Shown here piece after piece: positions 13,108-52,724 of a stretch of 64,000 nt of DNA. Origin of the DNA: Diabrotica undecimpunctata (lineage: Eukaryota; Arthropoda; Insecta; Coleoptera; Chrysomelidae); contig NC_092808.1 of assembly GCF_040954645.1 (NCBI RefSeq), forward strand, positions 114,492,049-114,556,048, given 5' to 3'. Numbering within the stretch: position 1 is the first letter of the stretch; every line of letters begins with the position of its first letter. The notes under the pieces are model-generated. The model was not told the DNA's origin, ran no database searches, and was given only the letters and a program-made list of their open reading frames with translations. The position numbers and the translations under genes are program-made.

Positions 13108-13323
13108 TTTGGAAGCTCCCGATTTAATTTAATGGTCTAAGATTTGTTTACCTGTTTTATAATATGTGTATCTGTCATCAAAGATGTAGAAATTATAAAG
13201 CAAACAATTTTTATGCTCCATATTTTAAATATTAAATAATTATTAAATAATTAAATATTATAAATTTTAATAAAAATTTGCCTAGTAATTTTCTTGTTAC
13301 TTAATGCTTTTCTTTGTTTTCAG

Positions 13324-14261
13324 GAGGAACGTACGTTTTGAAAAATTTTACCATGTTTGAGGAAAGTACGCTCAACTTATTATTTCTTTTAAATTGTTCG
13401 TTTGACAAAGTAGCACTATTTAAACCCTGTACATCAAAAAGTGGAAACTCTGAAGTATACGTTATTTGTACCAAATATAAGGGATTTAGCGTTATTGATC
13501 ATTTGTGGAGAGGTTTATGGGGTGCTTATGAAGATATTGACATATTTAATTCAAACTCTATGTTCTTGCTAACTCAACTACCGGATAGTTTTTTAGCTGA
13601 AATATATAAATGTTCAGATTTTTTTATGAAAAAACAAGCAGATACTATATTGGATAATATTTATCATTTTGATCGCAGGATTCAAGATAATATTTTTATT
13701 ACCAAGTCATTTGTAGCTCAAGTTTATTTGGCTAGACATGAGATCAAACCCATACCAGAAAGTTCCAAAATAGTACCAAATATATGTGTTTCTGAATTAT
13801 GGAGAGTCCATTCAACTAAGAACTCAAGACACTTTTTTAATACAAATTTACCAAACGTTATACGTAATAGAAAAATTTACAATAGTTTGGATATCATTAT
13901 TGGTAAAGAGATTCAAACTGTATATAATTCCAAATTTACTGACAACGACAATCTCAGAAAAATTCAAACGATGTGTGCAAATATTAAAAATACGTCCGAT
14001 TTTTATCAATATGTTTTGAAGGTGCTGCAAAAAAGTAACATTGTTATAAACGTTAAAGAATTTGATGTTACTATATTCTCAAAATTCCAAAAAGAATTGT
14101 TTCTCAAAATATCTTCCGTTATAGGGGTCGATAAGAATTTAATACTAATTAATATTCCCTTTGTAACGCATTTTCTTGTAGGATTACTATATTTATTAAT
14201 ATTTTTTTACGATAAAGTTTATATGGGGAGAGGTGTTGTATATCTATATCAACCAAAATCT
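13324..14261 (+). pseudogene. CMTR2 copy 1, truncated exon 5
   Basis: It begins after TTTGTTTTCAG and reads GGTYVLKNFTMFEES and onward, parallel to exon 5 of the intact gene. Homology ends at AACCAAAATCT (14261); a foreign TTTCGGGTTTTTTCACATAG ends the frame at 14282. In copy 2 the exon continues to 43990. Confidence 0.88.
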
Positions 14262-14334
14262 GTTTCGGGTTTTTTCACATAGTACATAATAACGCTAAAA
14301 ATGAATTTATTCCATACATATGGACTGCATGGTA

Positions 14335-18735: not shown

Positions 18736-27793
<9,058 letters not shown>

Positions 27794-42521: not shown

Positions 42522-43990
42522 AGAAGTTTCAATGCGCAAGAGAGAAACAGATCGAACAAACGCAAGAGATCTTGTCATCAATACGAGTGGCCGGTATGCT
42601 CGATCTATGTTAATATATACGTCTATGTTTTGGAAGCTCCCGATTTAATTTAATGGTCTAAGATTTGTTTACCTGTTTTATAATATGTGTATCTGTCATC
42701 AAAGATGTACAAATTATAAAGCAAACAATTTTTATGCTCCATATTTTAAATATTAAATAATTAAATATTATAAATTTTAATATAAATTGCCTAGTAATTT
42801 TCTTGTTACTTAATGCTTTTCTTTGTTTTTCAGGAGGAACTTACGTTTTGAAAATTTTTACCATGTTTGAGGAAAGTACGCTCAACTTATTATTTCTTTT
42901 AAATTGTTCGTTTGATAAAGTAGCACTATTTAAACCTTGTACATCAAAAAGTGGAAACTCTGAAGTATACGTTATTTGTACCAAATATAAGGGATTTAGC
43001 ATTATTGATCATTTGTGGAGAGGCTTATGGGGTGCTTATGAAGATATTGACATATTTAATTCAAACTCTATGTTCTTGCTAACTCATCTACCGGATAGTT
43101 TTTTAGCTGAAATATATAAATGTTCAGATTTTTTTATGAAAAAACAAGCAGATACTATATTGGATAATATTTATCATTTTGATCGCAGGATTCAAGATAA
43201 TATTTTTATTACCAAGTCATTTGTAGCTCAAGTTTATTTGGCTAGACATGAGATCAAACCCATACCAGAAAGTTCCAAAATAGTACCAAATATATGTGTT
43301 TCTGAATTATGGAGAGTCCATTCAACTAAGAACTCAAGGCACTTTTTTAATACAAATTTACCAAACGTTATACGTAATAGAAAAATTTACAATAGTTTGG
43401 ATATCATTATTGGTAAAGAAATTCAAACTGTATATAATTCCAAATTTACTGACAACGACAATCTCAGAAAAATTCAAACGATGTGTGCAAATAATAAAAA
43501 TACGTCCGATTTTTATCAATATGTTTTGAAGGTGCTGCAAAAAAATAACATTGTTATAAACGTTAAAGAATTTGATGTTACTATATTCTCAAAATTCCAA
43601 AAAGAATTGTTTCTCAAAATATCTTCCGTTATAGGTGTCGATAAGAATTTAATACTAATTAATATTCCCTTTGTAACGCATTTTCTTGCAGGATTACTAT
43701 ATTTATTAATATTTTTTTACGATAAAGTTTATATGGGGAGAGGTGTTGTATATTTATATCAACCAAAATCTAGTGTGTTCAAAAGTATACAAAGTATTTT
43801 TAACAGTATTACAGAAAAGTACAAACTTACAACTGAATCAAATAGCCAGTTTGCCCAGGATATTGTTCACATTGTTTCGCCTAGTGTATTTGAAACTGAG
43901 TCTTTTATTGAGACAATCTGGAATTATAATAAGTATTTATTTTGCGAGGACAAATGTTTTACTAGCCCTTATACATATCACTTACAATGA
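28421..43990 (+). CDS. CMTR2: CMTR2, cap-specific mRNA 2'-O-methyltransferase 2 (five exons)
   Basis: Exons 28421-28681, 34263-34421, 36884-37066, 41554-41674 and 42834-43990 join in phase to 626 residues. The enzyme methylates the ribose of the second transcribed nucleotide (cap2) of mRNA and snRNA using S-adenosylmethionine; the Drosophila relative is adrift. The RrmJ/FtsJ fold is seen as [10 protein letters not shown] (residues 116-125), NTLNP, the catalytic Asp in ITADGS (D208) and the Lys in TYVLKIF (K248); with the Lys of AWCK (K91) they match human K117, D235 and K275. The C-terminal half is a divergent second methyltransferase-like region, shorter than in human (770 residues). All GT-AG junctions are good. 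Introns hold many retroelements. It is divergent from a zinc-finger gene, and exons 2-5 are duplicated at 1358-14261. Confidence 0.93.
28740..29059. other. CMTR2 intron 1, no feature seen
   Basis: AT-rich intron sequence without recognisable repeats. Confidence 0.4.
29060..30080 (-). mobile_element. Degenerate Penelope-like element fragment
   Basis: On the minus strand pieces of RT ('[13 protein letters not shown]' near 29970, '[20 protein letters not shown]' and '[13 protein letters not shown]' at 29632-29817) precede a GIY-YIG segment '[12 protein letters not shown]' near 29210. Stops and shifts break the frame. It belongs to a different, older family than the intact element at 22114-24375. 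Confidence 0.72.
30090..31110. other. CMTR2 intron 1, no feature seen
   Basis: AT-rich sequence with no supported gene or repeat boundary. Confidence 0.45.
31120..31700 (+). mobile_element. CR1/Jockey-type LINE fragment
   Basis: The plus-strand reading '[20 protein letters not shown]' and '[14 protein letters not shown]' matches the region after the RT active site of CR1/Jockey-like elements (thumb, 'LGVIFDSKLSF...'-like). Several stops are present and both ends are missing. Confidence 0.6.
31860..32400 (+). mobile_element. RTE-like LINE fragment, linker and start of RT
   Basis: '[19 protein letters not shown]' near 31995-32050, '[14 protein letters not shown]' near 32125-32165 and '[12 protein letters not shown]' near 32250-32285 are typical of the segment between endonuclease and RT of RTE-like elements. 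It is frameshifted and lacks the catalytic core. Confidence 0.6.
32405..32600 (-). mobile_element. RTE-like LINE C-terminal fragment, minus strand
   Basis: The minus-strand reading '[20 protein letters not shown]' followed by 'TKWID' is the conserved Arg/Gly-rich C-terminal block. It is oriented against the neighbouring fragment, so it is a separate insertion. Confidence 0.6.
32616..32911 (+). pseudogene. Tc1-like transposase fragment (C-terminal DDE part)
   Basis: The frame reads '[17 protein letters not shown]', a stop, then '[20 protein letters not shown]' and '[16 protein letters not shown]'. This is the last third of a Tc1-like transposase with the second Asp (in HDNA) and the final acidic residue (in PIEN). 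Two in-frame stops inactivate it. It ends just before the point where duplication copy 2 matches window position 1. Confidence 0.85.
33160..34110 (+). mobile_element. Degenerate non-LTR remnant (copy 2)
   Basis: Counterpart of 240-1210 with the same broken RT motifs and TGATGATAA tail. A 95-residue open piece lies at 33729-34016. Confidence 0.75.
34263..34421 (+). CDS. CMTR2: CMTR2 exon 2
   Basis: Begins AWCKFYEIL (K91 equals human K117, part of the catalytic triad) and contains the SAM-binding [10 protein letters not shown] motif. The acceptor is TTCTGTTTTAG; the GTTAGT donor after GGTTTGGAA keeps phase 0. An alternative donor nine bases upstream would break the frame. Confidence 0.93.
34935..35843 (+). 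mobile_element. Copy-2-specific block with LINE C-terminal fragment
   Basis: The open frame 35371-35724 reads '[20 protein letters not shown]', '[15 protein letters not shown]' and '[16 protein letters not shown]', the C-terminus of an endonuclease-reverse transcriptase LINE, ending with an AAGAAGAAAAAG tail near 35724-35735. Sequence at 34935-35340 is not recognised. This block occupies the place where copy 1 has a different 3-kb LINE. Confidence 0.7.
36516..36685 (+). mobile_element. LINE 3'-end fragment (copy 2)
   Basis: Counterpart of 5716-5885, '[17 protein letters not shown]'. Confidence 0.5.
36884..37066 (+). CDS. CMTR2: CMTR2 exon 3
   Basis: 61 codons, phase 0, from '[17 protein letters not shown]' to '[10 protein letters not shown]' with a GTAAGT donor. 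It aligns with human WSWVANTLNP onward. Open reading past the donor is intronic. Confidence 0.93.
37190..37360 (+). mobile_element. LINE RT fragment, 5' part (copy 2), split by a nested LINE
   Basis: Plus-strand frames read 'FGIKVNGEL' and, after a frameshift, '[20 protein letters not shown]', containing the RT active site. The fragment resumes at 38619 after the nested insertion. Confidence 0.7.
37361..38607 (+). mobile_element. Nested 5'-truncated RTE-like LINE with 11-bp TSD
   Basis: The sequence AAACATGACAG occurs on both sides (37350-37360 and 38608-38618). The insert opens directly in RT ('[20 protein letters not shown]', '[15 protein letters not shown]', '[16 protein letters not shown]', '[13 protein letters not shown]') and ends with [15 protein letters not shown] sequence and a (GAA)n tail. 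Stops at 37817 and 38283, an internal deletion after DDTVLL and a stop at 38450 inactivate it. Confidence 0.88.
38619..38765 (+). mobile_element. LINE RT fragment, 3' part (copy 2)
   Basis: Resumes 'MGLKMNVS' and '[12 protein letters not shown]' after the nested LINE, matching copy 1 at 10150-10310. Confidence 0.65.
39835..40902. mobile_element. 1068-bp TA-flanked inverted-repeat element (Tc1/mariner-like, non-autonomous)
   Basis: Inserted at a TA present once in copy 1 (11402-11403) and duplicated here (39833-39834, 40903-40904). The ends are inverted repeats of about 33 bp with a perfect 19-bp core TCCCAAACCCTTCTTTCAG; the right end reads CAGTCTGTCCC inward. There is no transposase frame. 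A hammerhead-like motif is inside at 40664-40695. TA duplication and CAGT termini suggest mobilisation by a Tc1/mariner-type transposase. Confidence 0.85.
40664..40695 (+). ncRNA. Hammerhead-ribozyme-like motif
   Basis: CTGATGA, then T and a hairpin GGAAC-AGTT-GTTCC, then GAAAACGTTC. Both conserved core boxes are present around a good stem II. It resembles the motif at 21044-21077, so this part of the DNA element may derive from a Penelope-like sequence. Activity is uncertain because stem III is minimal. Confidence 0.5.
40958..41405 (-). mobile_element. LINE C-terminal fragment, minus strand (copy 2)
   Basis: Counterpart of 11457-11905. Confidence 0.75.
41554..41674 (+). CDS. CMTR2: CMTR2 exon 4
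   Basis: Encodes '[20 protein letters not shown]' with the catalytic Asp (D208), and ends one base into a Gly codon that is completed in exon 5. The acceptor is TTTCTAG, the donor GTACTT. Confidence 0.93.
41909..42220 (-). mobile_element. LINE C-terminal tail fragment (copy 2)
   Basis: Counterpart of 12410-12720, with the CTTCTTCTTCTT tail at 41906-41917. Confidence 0.7.
42440..42628. mobile_element. MITE-like inverted-repeat element (copy 2)
   Basis: Same element as 12939-13107, longer because its internal GA run is expanded. Confidence 0.7.
42478..42519 (+). repeat. (GA)n microsatellite
   Basis: An uninterrupted GA run of about 40 bp. The copy-1 counterpart (12977-12999) is about half as long and interrupted by GGG. 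Confidence 0.93.
42834..43990 (+). CDS. CMTR2: CMTR2 exon 5 (last)
   Basis: Begins after TTTGTTTTTCAG with [15 protein letters not shown], holding the catalytic Lys (K248), then '[16 protein letters not shown]', which is highly conserved in CMTR2. The C-terminal 350 residues form the less conserved second domain. The stop TGA is at 43988-43990. Confidence 0.95.
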
Positions 43991-45052: not shown

Positions 45053-47950
45053 TCTTCTTCTTCTTCTGGTTCCTATCTGTTTCGGATGTTGGAAATCATA
45101 TTGGCAATCATGACCTTGCTCGCTGCGGCTCGAAACAGCTCCGTTGAGGTTTTCTTAAACCATGTTCTTAAATTCCGCAGCCATGATATTCTCCTTCTAC
45201 CGGGTTCGCGCTTACCTTTGACTTTACCTTGCAATATAGACTGCAGCAGGGAGTAACGGTGCTGATTTTTCATAAGGTGTCCCAGATATTGCAATTTTAT
45301 GCGTTTGATGGTAAACACAATCTCTGGTTCCTTCTTCATTTTTTCTAGAACTTCCTTGTTCGTGATCCTTGCTGTCCATGATATTCTCAGCATTCTTCTA
45401 TAAAGCCACATCTCAAATGCTTCAAGTTTTTTAATAGTGGTGTCTGTGAGCGTCCATGCCTCCGCCCCGTAAAACAACACAGAAAACATAGCATCTCAAA
45501 TGTCTCATTTTTGTATCTAGGGATATGTTGTGACTTTTGAAGATGGCGCTCATTTTGTTAAAGACCGTTCTTGCCTTTCATATGCGGCACTTTATTTCCT
45601 GTACATTGCTCCACTGTTCGTTTATAATAGTTCCCAGGTAGCAATACTGTTTTACTCGCTCTATCTGCGTCCCATTAATTTATAGATGAGCCCCATTTAT
45701 ATTCTCCTTGCTGATAATCATTTGTTTTGTTTTGTGGGTATTAATGTTTAGTCCGTACTGTTGACTGTACTCGTTTATTTTGTCCATTAGCCTCTGAAGT
45801 CCCTCTAAACTATCTGCTATCACCATGGTGTCGTCGGCATATATAACATTGTTTACTCTTTCACCATTTAGAAGGATGCCTTCGTCTATTCCGTAAAGAG
45901 CCTCGTTAAAAATTTTCTCTGAGTACATATTAAATATCAACGGCGATAGGATACATCCCTGTCTAACTCCACGTAGTATTTTTATGTGATCTGTTTCTTC
46001 TCCGTTAATTTTCATGTATGCGGTCTGATTCCAGTATAGTTCTGAAATTATTCTGAGGTCTTTGTCATCCAGGTCTGCTTCTTTTAAAATGTTTATCATC
46101 TTTTGATGTTGAACTCTGTCAAATGCCTTTTCATAGTCGATCAAGCACGCGTATACGTCGCAGTTAACGTCCCTGCATCTTTGAATCAGTACCTGTACTC
46201 CGAAAAGTGCCTCTCTGGTACCCACTGCGTTAATGAAGCCGAACTGTCTGTCCGATATTTGTTCCTCGCACTTCTTATAAATTCTTCCATGGATGACTCT
46301 AAGAAACAGTTTCAACATGTCGCTCATTAGGCTGATTGTTCGATATTCTTCGCTTTTTTTAGCCCCATGTTTTTTAGGTATCGCTATGAATTCTGATTCT
46401 AGCCATTTATCAGGGATGATTCCTGTATTGTATATTTTATTGAAGACAGCCGTGATCCAATTTATTCCTTCTTCCTCCAAGAGTTTTAAAAATTCAGCTT
46501 CGATATTATCAGGCCCTACAGCTTTCCTGCTTTTCATCCGTTTTATTGCTTCTTCTACCTCGGATTTAAGTATGTCCGGGCCCGTCATCCTCTCTGAAAA
46601 TAAATGCCTATAATCCGTTCTTTGATCTTGAAAAAGTGTCTCCAAATATATTCTCCATTTGTCTTTCATCTCTTGGGTGTCAATGATTAATTTTCCATTG
46701 GTGTCTATGAGTTTCATTTGTGTTTGCTTTTTAAAAGTACCCGTTATTTCTTTTACCTTTTTGTGTACATTAAAATTGTCATGCTTGGCTTTTAGTCTTT
46801 CTATTTCTTTACATTTCTCTACAGCTTCTTTTTCTTTAGCTTCTCTTATTTTTCTTCTGATGTAAGCCTGCATTTTTTTATATTCATCTTTATTTCCTTT
46901 AATTAACCTTCTGCGTTCCATTAAGTGAAGGATTTCTGGAGTCATCCAAGATTTCTTCTTTGTTTGGTTTTAGCAGATCTTGTTTAGTTTTCTTAATTAT
47001 TTCTTAGAATTGATTGATTTCTCGTTGGATGTTATTTTCTTCTTTTAGTTGTTTAACTTGGTTGTTAATATATTTCCCCACTTGCTTTTTAACTTCCGGA
47101 TGTTGCAGGGCTGTCATGTCGTAGTTAGGTCTAGACTTTTTCTTTATTGTCTTCAGTCTCACATCCATGACTCCCACTAAAGGTATGTGGTCAGATTCAA
47201 TGTCCGCTCCTGGATATGTTTTGACAGATTTAAAACTGTTTCTGAATCTTCTATTTACCAATATATAATCTATCTGGTTTCTAATTACGTTATGGGGTTT
47301 ATCTGCTGGTGCCTTCCATGTATACAATCTCCTCGGTGGTAGTTTATAAAATGTGTTTAGAACCACTAGCTTGTTATCTTCTGCGAATATTTCTAGTCTG
47401 TCACCTCTTTCGTTTCTTTGTCCTAACCCAAAAGGTCCGATTAGAGACGTTTTCCGTTCGGCCCCAAGTTTTGCATTGAAATCCCCCATTATGATGCTGA
47501 CTTCGTGTTTAGGTATTCGTTCTAATATATCCTCTATGCTTTGGTAGAGAGTCTCTACTTCCTCGTCGTCTTTATCTGCAGTGGGATCGTATATTTGTAT
47601 TATGCTTACATTCACTGGATTGGCTCTTATTTGCAGTAGTATTACTCTGTTGAACACGGACAAAATTTAAAATACATCTACTAATTTTTCTCGTTATTAT
47701 CACACCAACTCCATGCTCTAGTTTTCCATCTAGTGACCCTGAGTAGAATATTCTGTGATCTTTTTTGTCAATGCTTCCTGTTCCGGGCCATCTCATCTCG
47801 CTTATTCCCATTATGTCAATGGTCATTCTTTCCATTTCCTGAATGGCATTTTCTATTTTTCCACTCCTTGCCATAGTTTTCACATTCCATGTGCAAATTT
47901 TTAAATATTGTGGTTTTGCTGCTTTTTCTTTTTCATAGGTACTCATAACT
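45053..47950 (-). mobile_element. RTE-like LINE, nearly full length, decayed
   Basis: In minus-strand order: N-terminus and endonuclease (47572-47946, 'CTWNVKTMARSGKIENAIQE'; 47004-47663, 'MGDFNAKLGAERKT', 'NQIDYILVNRRFRN', 'GADIESDHIPLVG'), RT (45680-46945, 'QFGFINAVGTREALF', 'LIDYEKAFDRVQHQK', 'GVRQGCILSPLIFNMYSEK', 'IYADDTMVIADS'), C-terminus (45073-45489) and a (GAA)n tail, seen as TTCTTC at 45053-45066. Frames change near 47665 and 46950, and stops lie at 45680 and near 45580. It is almost the same family as 25802-26655. Confidence 0.88.
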
Positions 47951-48816: not shown

Positions 48817-48819
<3 letters not shown>

Positions 48820-49095
48820 AGCGAGATTAAATAAAACGAGCGGTTCGAATTTATATAACTATATTTATTTATAAGTTTACAGTTCGGTACTCTCTTATCA
48901 ACTAACTTTACTTCTAACATTGTTACCTATTTATACTACAGTTACTGTATCGAGAATATTCTGGCGTTGTCCCACCTCTAATTCACCTACGTGACCGGTT
49001 ATTCTCTCTCGCACTCGATACGCCGCGAACTTTCGAGAGTATTAGAGATGCAATGCAACCGTTACCTGGGCCATACCAAAAGTATGTTCGTAACA
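48817..49095 (-). repeat. Gypsy 3' LTR (left in window)
   Basis: 279 bp, the same sequence as 52446-52724. On the minus strand it starts TGTTACGAACATAC and ends CTCGCTACA. Confidence 0.95.
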
Positions 49096-49108
49096 CTGCT
49101 CCCCTCTT
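49096..49108 (-). promoter_or_regulatory. Polypurine tract of the Gypsy element
   Basis: The minus strand reads TTAAGAGGGGAGCAG immediately before the 3' LTR, as required for plus-strand DNA priming. Confidence 0.7.
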
Positions 49109-51875
49109 AAATCTGATCGTCCCGATCAGCAACTCCGGTAGGCACAGCATGGCGGAATCTACAGGACTCTCCAGCTCTGCATGAACCCTTTAGAAAGAAA
49201 TAACAGTCTACTGACTTTGAAGGATACGATCCCATCGGGTTAATGCAACACACAGTAATTCGTACGCCGGTGTCTCGGAAGATCACTTCAAGCATGCTTC
49301 TGACAATCTTCCAGTCCAGATTATCTAGTGCATGGCCTATCTTGGGTAAGGCCAAATTCTTGATGTCGTAATTGCACACAATTTTCTTCAAATTAGTTAG
49401 AGCACGCCATATATCCTCGTAGCTTGCCCTGTCTGTATAAGACTTCCTGGTCACCATATACAGCAAAGATCGGGAACCATCTTCTAATCTCAGTACTCTT
49501 CCAACTTTAGGCTGCTGGTTTTTTAACTCGTCCAAACGACCGAATTTCTTATAAAATACGGATGAGATTCCTTTAGTCATCTCAAGATCTTGGGCAACAC
49601 AGTGGGCTAGAGAGACGTTATGCGGAACACTAAAAAGATCCTGCTGAACTTCTGTGGTCACGCCGAATCTAGCACTCTTTCTCTCTGCGTAATTTGACAT
49701 AAATTCATTAAAGCTTGGTCGCCGGTCATCTTTGCTCTCATGTTGAAGGGTTCGTGCTTCTTCTGTTTCATTTGAGCCAGCATATGGTGCAAGACGATTT
49801 ATGTGAACCACTTTTGGTTTACCTTTCGGCAACTTCTTAATTCGGTATATTACGTCATTTATTTTCTTTTTAATTTCATATGGACCTTCCCATTGTCTTT
49901 GCAGTTTGGGAGACAAGCCTCGACGACGTTGTGGATTATAAAGCCAAACAAGATCACCTACTTCATAGCTTTCACTCTTGCATCGAGAATCATATTGATC
50001 TTTCATTCTGTCACTGGCTATCTGGATGTGTTGTCGGGCAAGTTCATGAATGTTGTTCATTCTTAACTTCAGGCGGTCGACATAATCTTCGCTTGCAACA
50101 TGTTCTTCGGAAGGTCTGCAGCCAAACTCTAGGTCGCAGGGTAAACGAACTTCACGACCTAACATCAGACAGGTTGGAGTCTGGCCTGTAGTTTCATTCA
50201 CGGCCGAGCGGTAGGCCATTAGGAATAAATGAATGTGCTGGTCCCAATCTCTTTGATGTTCTGATACAACTTTGGACAGGTGTTTACCCATTGTTCGGTT
50301 CATTCTCTCGACCATTCCATCTGATTGAGGATGCAGGGGTGTCGTTCTGGTCTTATTGACACCAATCAATTTACAAACGTTTTGGAATAGGGTTGACTCA
50401 AAGTTTCGCCCTTGGTCGGAGTGGATCTCCAAAGGAACACCAAATCGGCTAAAGAATTCTTTAACAAGTACCTCTGCAACGGTAGCAGCTTCTTGATTTG
50501 GTATCGCATAGGCCTCAGTCCATTTCGTAAAATAATCCATGGCTACCAGGATATATTTATTTCCATCATTTGTCTCTGGAAGTGGACCTGCAATGTCGAT
50601 TGCTACTCTTTCCATAGGACTACCAACATTGTACTGTCTCATGGGTGCCCTCTTTTTACCAGCTGGCCCATTACTGGTTGCACACAGTTCACATTTCCGG
50701 CACCATCTTCTTACATCATCTTTACAGTTCACCCAATAGAACCGTTCCCGAACCTTTTGCAGAGTCTTCGTGATACCAAAGTGTCCACCTGATGTACCGT
50801 CATGCAACTGACGCAATACTTCTGACACTTTACTTTTAGGTACAATCAACTGAAGCTTAGTTTCTGTACCATCATCGTTCTCAAAGGTTCTATACAGAAG
50901 ATCATCTTTCAGCACTAGACAATTCCATTGGCTCCAGTAACACTTGACTTCTGGACTACATGCACTAATGTCTTGCCAAGAAGGTCTTTCACTTCGACGC
51001 ATCCAATCCAATACTCTTTTTATACATGGATCATCTGCTTGAGCGTCTTGTAGCTGTTGAGGCTGCCATTGATCATTAATGACGGTGGTTCGTCTCACGG
51101 GGCAAAGTCGTTCTTCTAATTTAAGACAGTGATTACAATTTGCACTGCACGGCCGTCTCGAAAGGGCATCAGCATTTGAATGAACTCTGCCAGCCCTGTG
51201 TTCGATCTCGTAATCATATTCTTGCAATCGTTCTAACCATCTTGCCATCTGGCCCTCTGGATTACGGAATTGTAGAAGCCATTTTAGAGCAGCGTGATCC
51301 GTGCGAAGAAGAAACTTTCTGCCATACAAGTATTTATGGAAATGCTCGCAAGCCTTTACTACGCCTAGCAATTCTCTCCTAGTAACGCAATAGTTTCTTT
51401 CTGGTTTTGACAAGACTTTGCTAAAGTAAGCGATGACTTTCTCCTGTCCATCTTGGATTTGTGAGAGAACAGCTCCTATTGCACTGTTGCTTGCATCGGT
51501 GTCCAACACAAATTTTCCTGCCTGTCTAGGGTAGCTTAAAATCGGTGCGCTGGTTAGAGCCATTTGTAAGTTTTCGAAAGCTCTTTGACACTCTTCGCTC
51601 CATGTATATTCTTTGCCTTCTTCTGTCAACTTTGTTAATGGCTTGGAGATGTTGGCAAATCCTTTAACAAAACGTCGGTAATATGTACATAGGCCAAGAA
51701 AACTTCTAATTTCGTGTTTATCTCTTGGTACAGGCCAATCCTTAATTGCTGAAAGTTTTTCAGGATCAGCTGTTACACCATTACTTGCTACAATATGTCC
51801 CAAGTACTTCACTTCTCGTCGAAACATTTTTCTGTATCTTATCAAATGTTCTTGAGACTTCTTCAAATTTCTCAT
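49107..51875 (-). CDS. Gypsy pol polyprotein fragment: RT C-term, RNase H, integrase, macro domain, CCCH finger
   Basis: 922-residue frame; residues 1-16 are out-of-frame gag sequence from the deletion junction. From residue 17: RT C-terminus ('[14 protein letters not shown]', '[14 protein letters not shown]'), RNase H (D125, E168, D193), integrase zinc site (H358, H365, C395, C398), DDE core D427, D487, E523 (DD35E) and a GPY-like segment ('QWEGPYEI', 663-670). After a linker, residues 737-875 match the TARG1/OARD1 type of macro domain ('[15 protein letters not shown]', 'VFYKKFG', '[15 protein letters not shown]'), with the Asp corresponding to TARG1's catalytic Asp at D851. A CCCH finger follows (C891, C899, C905, H909). 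There is no stop between the integrase and macro parts. The palm of RT is absent, so this copy cannot reverse transcribe by itself. Confidence 0.88.
49149..49205 (-). other. CCCH zinc finger at the pol C-terminus
   Basis: C-x7-C-x5-C-x3-H spacing at residues 891-909 ([19 protein letters not shown]). CCCH fingers of this spacing usually bind RNA. It may replace or supplement a nucleocapsid function; that is inference. Confidence 0.8.
49251..49667 (-). other. TARG1/OARD1-like macro domain within Gypsy pol
   Basis: About 139 residues align along their whole length with the human ADP-ribose glycohydrolase OARD1 as I remember it: [64 protein letters not shown] and RITV. The residue in the place of the nucleophilic Lys84 appears to be Arg (T-R-K instead of T-K-K) with Lys next to it; Asp125 is kept. 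ADP-ribose binding is likely, hydrolysis uncertain. Confidence 0.8.
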
Positions 51876-52284
51876 TGTTTTGATTACATACTTCGTCGAA
51901 TCTTCTAGACATATTTTCGAATTTCTCGTCGTTTTGTCTAGCTGTTTCTTTAATAATTTGAGAAGTTTCTTCGATCATTTGAGACGTTTCATCGAATCTT
52001 TTGGAAACAGTCTCGAATTTATCATCAGTTTTTTTAGAAGTTTCTTCTATCATTTGCGACGTTTCATCGAATCTTTTGGAAACATTCTCGAATTTTCCAT
52101 CAATTATTTTAGTTAAAACGGCTTCGTCTGCTGACTGGAACTGGAATGTCTCTGGGTCTTCTCCATTCTTGTTGAGAACAGTCTTCAGTCGTTCTTGGAG
52201 TATCTTCTTGGACCCGCTGCAGTCTTCATCGCGTTCTTCCAGTTGCTCACGCAACTGTTTTACCGAAAGTTCTACTAGCAGCAT
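51781..52284 (-). CDS. Gypsy gag N-terminal fragment (SAP-like motif and coiled coil)
   Basis: Starts [20 protein letters not shown] and fits a SAP-type helix-turn-helix ([10 protein letters not shown]...[14 protein letters not shown], residues 6-37), known from many insect Gypsy gags. Residues 60-150 are near-tandem units of [20 protein letters not shown], a strong coiled coil. From about 51830 the frame no longer encodes gag: the last 17 or so residues are RT sequence in the wrong frame. Capsid and nucleocapsid parts are deleted. Confidence 0.75.
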
Positions 52285-52427
52285 CTTTGGTCAGGCACAC
52301 ACGTACTTTTTTAAATGTTCTTTCGTACAAAGGTCACTACCGAACTACGCGAATTTTCCCGACGAACAATACTTTTCAAAAGTTCAAAAGTCTTTTTCAA
52401 AAATCACTGCTGAATTTATTTGCAAAT

Positions 52428-52445
52428 CTCACACCGGACACCAAC
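52428..52445 (-). promoter_or_regulatory. Candidate primer-binding site of the Gypsy element
   Basis: Directly after the 5' LTR (minus strand) comes GTTGGTGTCCGGTGTGAG. TGG followed by a short match is expected for tRNA 3'-CCA priming; which tRNA cannot be decided here. Confidence 0.45.
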
Positions 52446-52724
52446 TGTAGCGAGATTAAATAAAACGAGCGGTTCGAATTTATATAACTATATTTATTTA
52501 TAAGTTTACAGTTCGGTACTCTCTTATCAACTAACTTTACTTCTAACATTGTTACCTATTTATACTACAGTTACTGTATCGAGAATATTCTGGCGTTGTC
52601 CCACCTCTAATTCACCTACGTGACCGGTTATTCTCTCTCGCACTCGATACGCCGCGAACTTTCGAGAGTATTAGAGATGCAATGCAACCGTTACCTGGGC
52701 CATACCAAAAGTATGTTCGTAACA
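52446..52724 (-). repeat. Gypsy 5' LTR (right in window)
   Basis: 279 bp, the same as 48817-49095. It is expected to carry the promoter for the minus-strand transcript. Confidence 0.95.

Follow-up and report, generated by a model that had tools for sequence, protein, structure and literature searches.

A TARG1/OARD1-type macro domain and a CCCH zinc finger fused in frame to the Pol protein of an insect Ty3/Gypsy retrotransposon

Introduction

In chromoviruses, a chromodomain that reads histone methylation is located at the C-terminus of the integrase. The macro domain described here may likewise be a reader and occupies the same place after the integrase, an analogy of position for which no homology is claimed. 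Host-type domains have also been described in other retroelements: epsilon-like endogenous retroviruses of ray-finned fish carry a macro-domain ORF (Basta et al. 2009, cited in PMC4977317), and orchid Ty3/Gypsy elements have fixed a host-type eraser, an AlkB-type m6A demethylase whose activity was shown in vitro (PMC9289625). As far as the available text of these sources goes, the domain is an additional ORF in both systems, in the second one within 25-kb elements of a plant host, whereas in the insect Gypsy element it is fused in frame to the C-terminus of Pol and accompanied by a CCCH finger, with no room for env. The DarG antitoxin macro domain and the viral macro domains belong to bacterial antitoxin or RNA-virus replicase settings, unlike that of the element.

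For TARG1 (OARD1), the consulted parts of the cited papers describe (i) catalysis by a Lys84/Asp125 dyad (PMC9411070, PMC7050489, the latter printing the second residue as Glu125), (ii) hydrolysis without this dyad, via Gln85, in SCO6735, a protein of the same class (PMC9411070), and (iii) a requirement of G43, I44 and G123 for ADP-ribose binding, which is abolished by G123E (PMC5928194).

The window analysed is a stretch of 64,000 nucleotides of Diabrotica undecimpunctata (contig NC_092808.1, positions 114,492,049 to 114,556,048); the coordinates below are those of the window. A sequence-only reading of this DNA had known of no common Gypsy lineage with a macro-domain tail. This statement holds for the in-frame Pol-macro-finger fusion in insect Gypsy elements, of which a literature search covering few subscription papers found no example, but macro-domain ORFs were already known in retroelements, namely in the fish retroviruses as reported in the cited text.

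Structure of the element

The locus holds a 3.9-kb LTR retrotransposon (48817-52724, minus strand), identified as such by two LTRs with TG...CA ends. The 5' LTR (52446..52724) and the 3' LTR (48817..49095), both on the minus strand and of 279 bp, are 100% identical, which makes a recent insertion probable. A putative primer-binding site (52426..52443, minus strand) lies 2 nt past the 5' LTR and a polypurine-tract-like stretch of 11 nt (49096..49106, minus strand) abuts the 3' LTR, both read by eye. A 5' ORF of 167 aa (51781..52284, minus strand), coiled-coil-like by eye, may be a gag remnant, judging from its position. This ORF contains an 81-bp direct repeat (51957-52037 and 52032-52112, 90% identity).

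A single frame of 922 aa (49107-51875, minus strand) runs from the end of the reverse transcriptase (RT) through RNase H, integrase, an SH3-like domain and the macro domain to the CCCH finger, which confirms the uninterrupted integrase-macro-finger architecture described earlier and shows the fusion to Pol to be real. The frame encodes, all on the minus strand, RT-associated RNase H domains (51216..51602; PF17919/PF17917), an integrase zinc-binding H2C2 domain (50670..50843; PF17921), the integrase catalytic core rve (50328..50618; PF00665), an integrase C-terminal SH3-like domain, previously called a GPY-like segment (49782..49958; PF24626/PF22938), a linker with the motif SFxxFMxxY...ARFGVT, found by alignment and common to many relatives (49665..49723), the TARG1/OARD1-type macro domain (49242..49664; sequence and fold match) and the CCCH zinc finger C-x7-C-x5-C-x3-H (49149..49205; pattern and PF00642). 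The order RNase H, H2C2, rve and SH3 is that of Ty3/Gypsy elements. A Pfam-type domain search of the 922-aa frame found no protease and no RT catalytic domain; in many sister copies the open frame reaches at least 1413 aa, and the window copy is therefore, to judge from the sequence, internally deleted, the RT itself being gone. No env gene, as is found in errantiviruses (insect endogenous retroviruses), is present between pol and the 3' LTR of the window copy, where 11 nt separate the pol stop from the LTR. In P0001 and similar relatives, the frame continues past the window's stop (49096-49109), seemingly across the polypurine tract as far as the margin of the LTR.

Other features were observed in the window. 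Two ORFs that are near-identical by eye, each with an FtsJ methyltransferase C-terminal piece (13314-14282 and 42803-43990, plus strand), apparently represent a duplicated cap-methyltransferase-like gene or fragments of one, about 29 kb apart. A 753-aa frame (22114-24375, minus strand) with an RVT_1 match and, by eye, a GIY-YIG-like C-terminus looks like a Penelope-like element, and RTE/BovB-type LINE-like fragments are found at 45073-47946 (minus strand) and 25766-26635 (plus strand), with an RVT_1 match at E 1.2e-35 for 45683-46945 and the rest read by eye.

Copies in the genome and relatives in other insects

A search of the species' own genome (1.743 Gb, 2867 contigs) with the tail returned 6263 first-look candidates; the 150 scored copies, ranked by tail similarity and biased accordingly, all share at least 96% identity, and 147 are without a stop. 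A second sample was drawn in rank order of integrase similarity to the related protein P0002 (136 scored of 18576 candidates), and all 40 of its copies carry the tail, one with a stop and two with matches that exceed that of the window by 5 and 8 bases; the inserted columns were omitted from the counts below. The P0002 tail found only window-type copies, at 54-56% identity, among 150 scored of 5833 candidates. An OARD1-like host gene is also present, as the single match with an E of 1e-40 or below among 150 scored of 4752 candidates; it shares 85% identity with Diabrotica virgifera P0021, keeps the ITKK, GCGLD and MGSGIA motifs intact and is located elsewhere in the genome, apart from the element.

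The possibility that the window copy merely runs by chance into host sequence that it captured, or that the assembly is faulty, was considered; nothing in its favour was found, and the genomic copies with the tail rule it out. Because the tail recurs across the first-look candidates, the scored copies and the integrase-ranked sample, and with the host gene sitting elsewhere and relatives present in other insects, the probability left to it is negligible, and the junction is not unique to this locus.

In total, 22 related proteins with a macro tail were retained, which gives 23 element domains with that of the window. Protein searches with the window tail (4 relatives) and with the P0002 tail (20 proteins including P0002 itself, 13 read as element Pol and 7 as host-type) together yielded 15 distinct element proteins; a macro-domain profile search gave 2090 matches, and 15 sequences were read among the 120 listed, 7 more being taken as element-derived on the basis of linker, finger or place in the tree. 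Two Macrosteles quadrilineatus (Hemiptera) proteins, P0026 and P0032, are classed as element proteins by linker similarity to P0013 and by the tree. The relatives come from Diabrotica virgifera, Harmonia, Aromia, Callosobruchus, Brassicogethes, Pyrocoelia and Macrosteles, and the leafhopper members could reflect horizontal transfer or a greater age. Of the 23 element proteins, 16 show a loosely defined ARFGVT-like pattern. In relatives long enough to show the order, the macro domain lies behind the integrase C-terminal domain; long polyproteins, among them P0002, P0005, P0006 and P0008, match protease, RT, RNase H and integrase in precomputed Pfam assignments and end in macro domain and finger, the order of the domains in relatives such as P0002 being judged by eye. 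A tail scan of viral contigs and a Pol-alignment scan of viral and genome contigs found no relatives and no macro-less ones. The records of two Pol-macro proteins, P0003 and P0013, name the powdery mildew Erysiphe pulchra as their source, which probably reflects insect contamination of the assembly.

Macro domain and active site

The macro domain belongs to the class of the ADP-ribosyl hydrolase TARG1/OARD1 (ALC1-like), as the sequence-only reading had proposed, and is matched both by sequence and by fold search, so that a structural match to macro domains does exist. The general profile PF01661 matches 10 of 15 tails at E 0.01 or less; its match in the window is weak (E 0.15) and was not used as evidence.

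Residues are given in human TARG1 numbering. The dyad residues are both kept in the 38 non-element rows of the alignment and occur together in 21 of the 23 element domains (K84 in 21, D125 in 22). In the window, D125 is kept and K84 and G123 are replaced by R and A; the codon at position 84 is AGG in 40/40 genomic copies, and that of D125 is GAT in 37/40 (one each AAT, AGT and GAA). The window domain and P0001 share Arg84, His122 and Ala123, P0001 having Glu125 in addition. Position 123 is otherwise Gly (20/23) or, in P0004, Ser, and G43 and I44 are kept in 23/23. The window family thus differs from TARG1/OARD1 and from insect OARD1-like genes by K84R, G123A and the fusion to integrase, and the element domains as a whole differ from most of the 38 non-element rows by G41 to S/T (23/23; S in 6/38) and A42 to R/K (22/23; K in 8/38).

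Since K84 is kept in 21 of 23 domains, the element lineage was probably a hydrolase ancestrally. The window family lacks the Lys84/Asp125 dyad of TARG1-type hydrolases, and a working enzyme of this kind at the locus, as had been read from the sequence, is contradicted by the arginine in all 40 integrase-sampled copies. Arg84 would not be expected to do the chemistry of TARG1's lysine, and the loss of this lysine makes the family most likely non-hydrolytic by the dyad route; with K84 lost and G123 replaced by Ala, even ADP-ribose binding appears uncertain.

These residues bear on a counter-defence role, suggested by the sequence-only reading, in which a free ADP-ribosyl hydrolase would, like viral macro domains, strip host-PARP ADP-ribose from Gag, element RNA or antiviral proteins. 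We regard this role as possible but improbable: the dyad is kept in most members, yet the lysine is absent from every sampled copy of a window family that is abundant nonetheless, and no PARP-based restriction specific to LTR elements is known to us from insects. A search of a viral fold library gave 134 macro-domain matches at E 0.001 or less, which would fit such a role; the best is VP8 of Kadipiro virus, an insect-borne reovirus, with a TARG1-like predicted fold and 35% identity, which may have been taken from a host independently. In the same direction, the accessible parts of two papers report that the alphavirus nsP3 macro protein disturbs stress granules (PMC7050489) and that ZAP/PARP13, a PARP-family CCCH protein, restricts human L1 retrotransposition (PMC4441479).

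Zinc finger

The CCCH finger of the window was correctly recognized from the sequence and matches PF00642 at 24.2 bits against a cutoff of 20.5; its best PDB match is CPSF4 (E 2.3e-6). The pattern C-x7/8-C-x5-C-x3-H is present in 15 of 23 elements and in 0 of 8 host rows, and the finger was therefore probably added separately from the macro domain.

The finger raises the alternative of a nucleic-acid tether, in which macro domain and finger would mainly bind RNA or cDNA, ADP-ribose chemistry being secondary. The frequency of the finger and its match to CPSF4 are in line with this alternative, as are its retention in a window family that has lost catalysis and the binding of RNA by TARG1 itself, outside the pocket according to the part of PMC5928194 consulted. 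However, 8 of the 23 proteins are without an intact finger (P0012 and P0026 end before its position), and most members conserve K84 and D125, which speaks for a role of the pocket, so that a tether as the main function seems unlikely.

Origin of the macro domain

The macro-domain tree comprised 61 rows, namely the 23 element domains and 38 others, 30 of which were chosen by hand among 120 listed matches. The 23 element domains fall on one side of a branch (support 88/91; 89% of 200 bootstrap trees), and this clade joins eight beetle-host-type rows (six from named species, two placed by similarity) at 95/86*, with three further rows inside the group, among insect OARD1 rows. The four chosen outgroup rows are not on one side of any branch, so the root and the host-to-element direction of the capture are ones that we infer.

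In the 14 elements whose integrase could be used, the distances of the macro domain are correlated with those of integrase (Mantel r 0.77, p 1e-4; Spearman 0.51). Four small clades are common to the two trees, namely (window, P0001), (P0002-P0005), (P0006, P0007) and (P0013, P0014). One macro clade and distances that broadly track those of integrase make a single old capture of a host OARD1/TARG1-type domain, followed by co-diversification, likely. Macro distances are a median 1.8 times integrase distances. The window pair groups with P0002-P0005 in the integrase tree (99/98*) and stands on a long branch elsewhere in the macro tree, with a stem of 0.75 for macro versus 0.20 for integrase (0.18 versus 0.13 for the sister clade P0002-P0005). 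This long stem and discordant place make a relaxed constraint on the window family's macro domain possible.

Selection on the tail

The tail shows a deficit of nonsynonymous change, which answers the call of the sequence-only reading for a check of purifying selection. In the 40 integrase-ranked copies, variants shared by at least two copies number 10 nonsynonymous (N) and 13 synonymous (S), where neutrality at kappa 3 predicts an N fraction of 0.72; the ratio is 0.30 of neutral (p 0.004; 0.0006 to 0.007 over kappa 1 to 5). Singletons number 42 N and 25 S (ratio 0.65, p 0.06; 0.006 to 0.12 over kappa 1 to 5), with no significant difference between shared and single variants (Fisher p 0.14). 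Four codons with more than one change and one stop were set aside in these counts, and the p-values are approximate, the copies being related and not independent.

An earlier sample consisted of 50 tail-ranked copies, from which L051 was dropped for the tail and L051 and L013 for integrase (stops, gaps or misalignment). In this first test, shared variants were N5:S11 for the tail in 49 copies (p 8e-4) and N1:S22 for integrase in 47 copies, and integrase looks to be under stronger constraint than the tail. The tail-ranked sample is biased against nonsynonymous change, its top 30 copies being without nonsynonymous singletons, and the test was therefore redone on the integrase-ranked copies, with an outside protein as query; a few copies are common to the two samples. 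The near-fixed differences that separate two subfamilies (1 N and 2 S in the tail, none in integrase) were not numerous enough to be used.

These counts bear on a passenger hypothesis, in which the domain, captured once, would now be drifting, tolerated as harmless at the end of the frame. The long macro branch and lost active site of the window family, the weaker constraint on the tail relative to integrase in the tail-ranked sample and the larger macro distances agree with it. Nevertheless, the catalytic dyad is conserved over diverged families, the shared variants of the integrase-ranked sample depart from neutrality, and elements ending after the integrase should fare equally well, yet the tail is present in 40/40 copies. 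Drift of a mere passenger is thus highly doubtful.

Proposed role and significance

In the preferred reading, which stands at about even chances as a whole, an insect Ty3/Gypsy lineage would have captured a host OARD1/TARG1-type macro domain, probably once, in frame at the integrase C-terminus, many members also having the CCCH finger. Carried with Pol into the particle, the domain would probably work with the integrase at the DNA stage; in most members it would bind, and probably hydrolyse, ADP-ribose attached to chromatin proteins or to DNA ends near the newly inserted copy, and in the window family, with its catalytic Lys replaced by Arg, it would most likely only bind, either ADP-ribose or, together with the finger, RNA or DNA. 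Action with the integrase is suggested by the position of the domain directly behind the integrase C-terminal domain, although the protease may cleave the two apart. A bolder version, tentative and rather improbable, would make the domain the Gypsy counterpart of a chromodomain, an ADP-ribose module carried by the integrase. It would read PARP marks at breaks or in open chromatin, erase them in most families and thereby direct or complete integration, and the window-type family, having lost the catalytic lysine, would have become a pure reader whose fold is kept under selection.

If the preferred reading is true, ADP-ribosylation would be a direct part of how an LTR retrotransposon replicates, and the natural families with and without the catalytic lysine would offer a ready comparison of eraser and reader function. 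The insect Gypsy lineage would then join the retroelements with host-type modification erasers, alongside the fish retroviruses and the orchid Gypsy elements.
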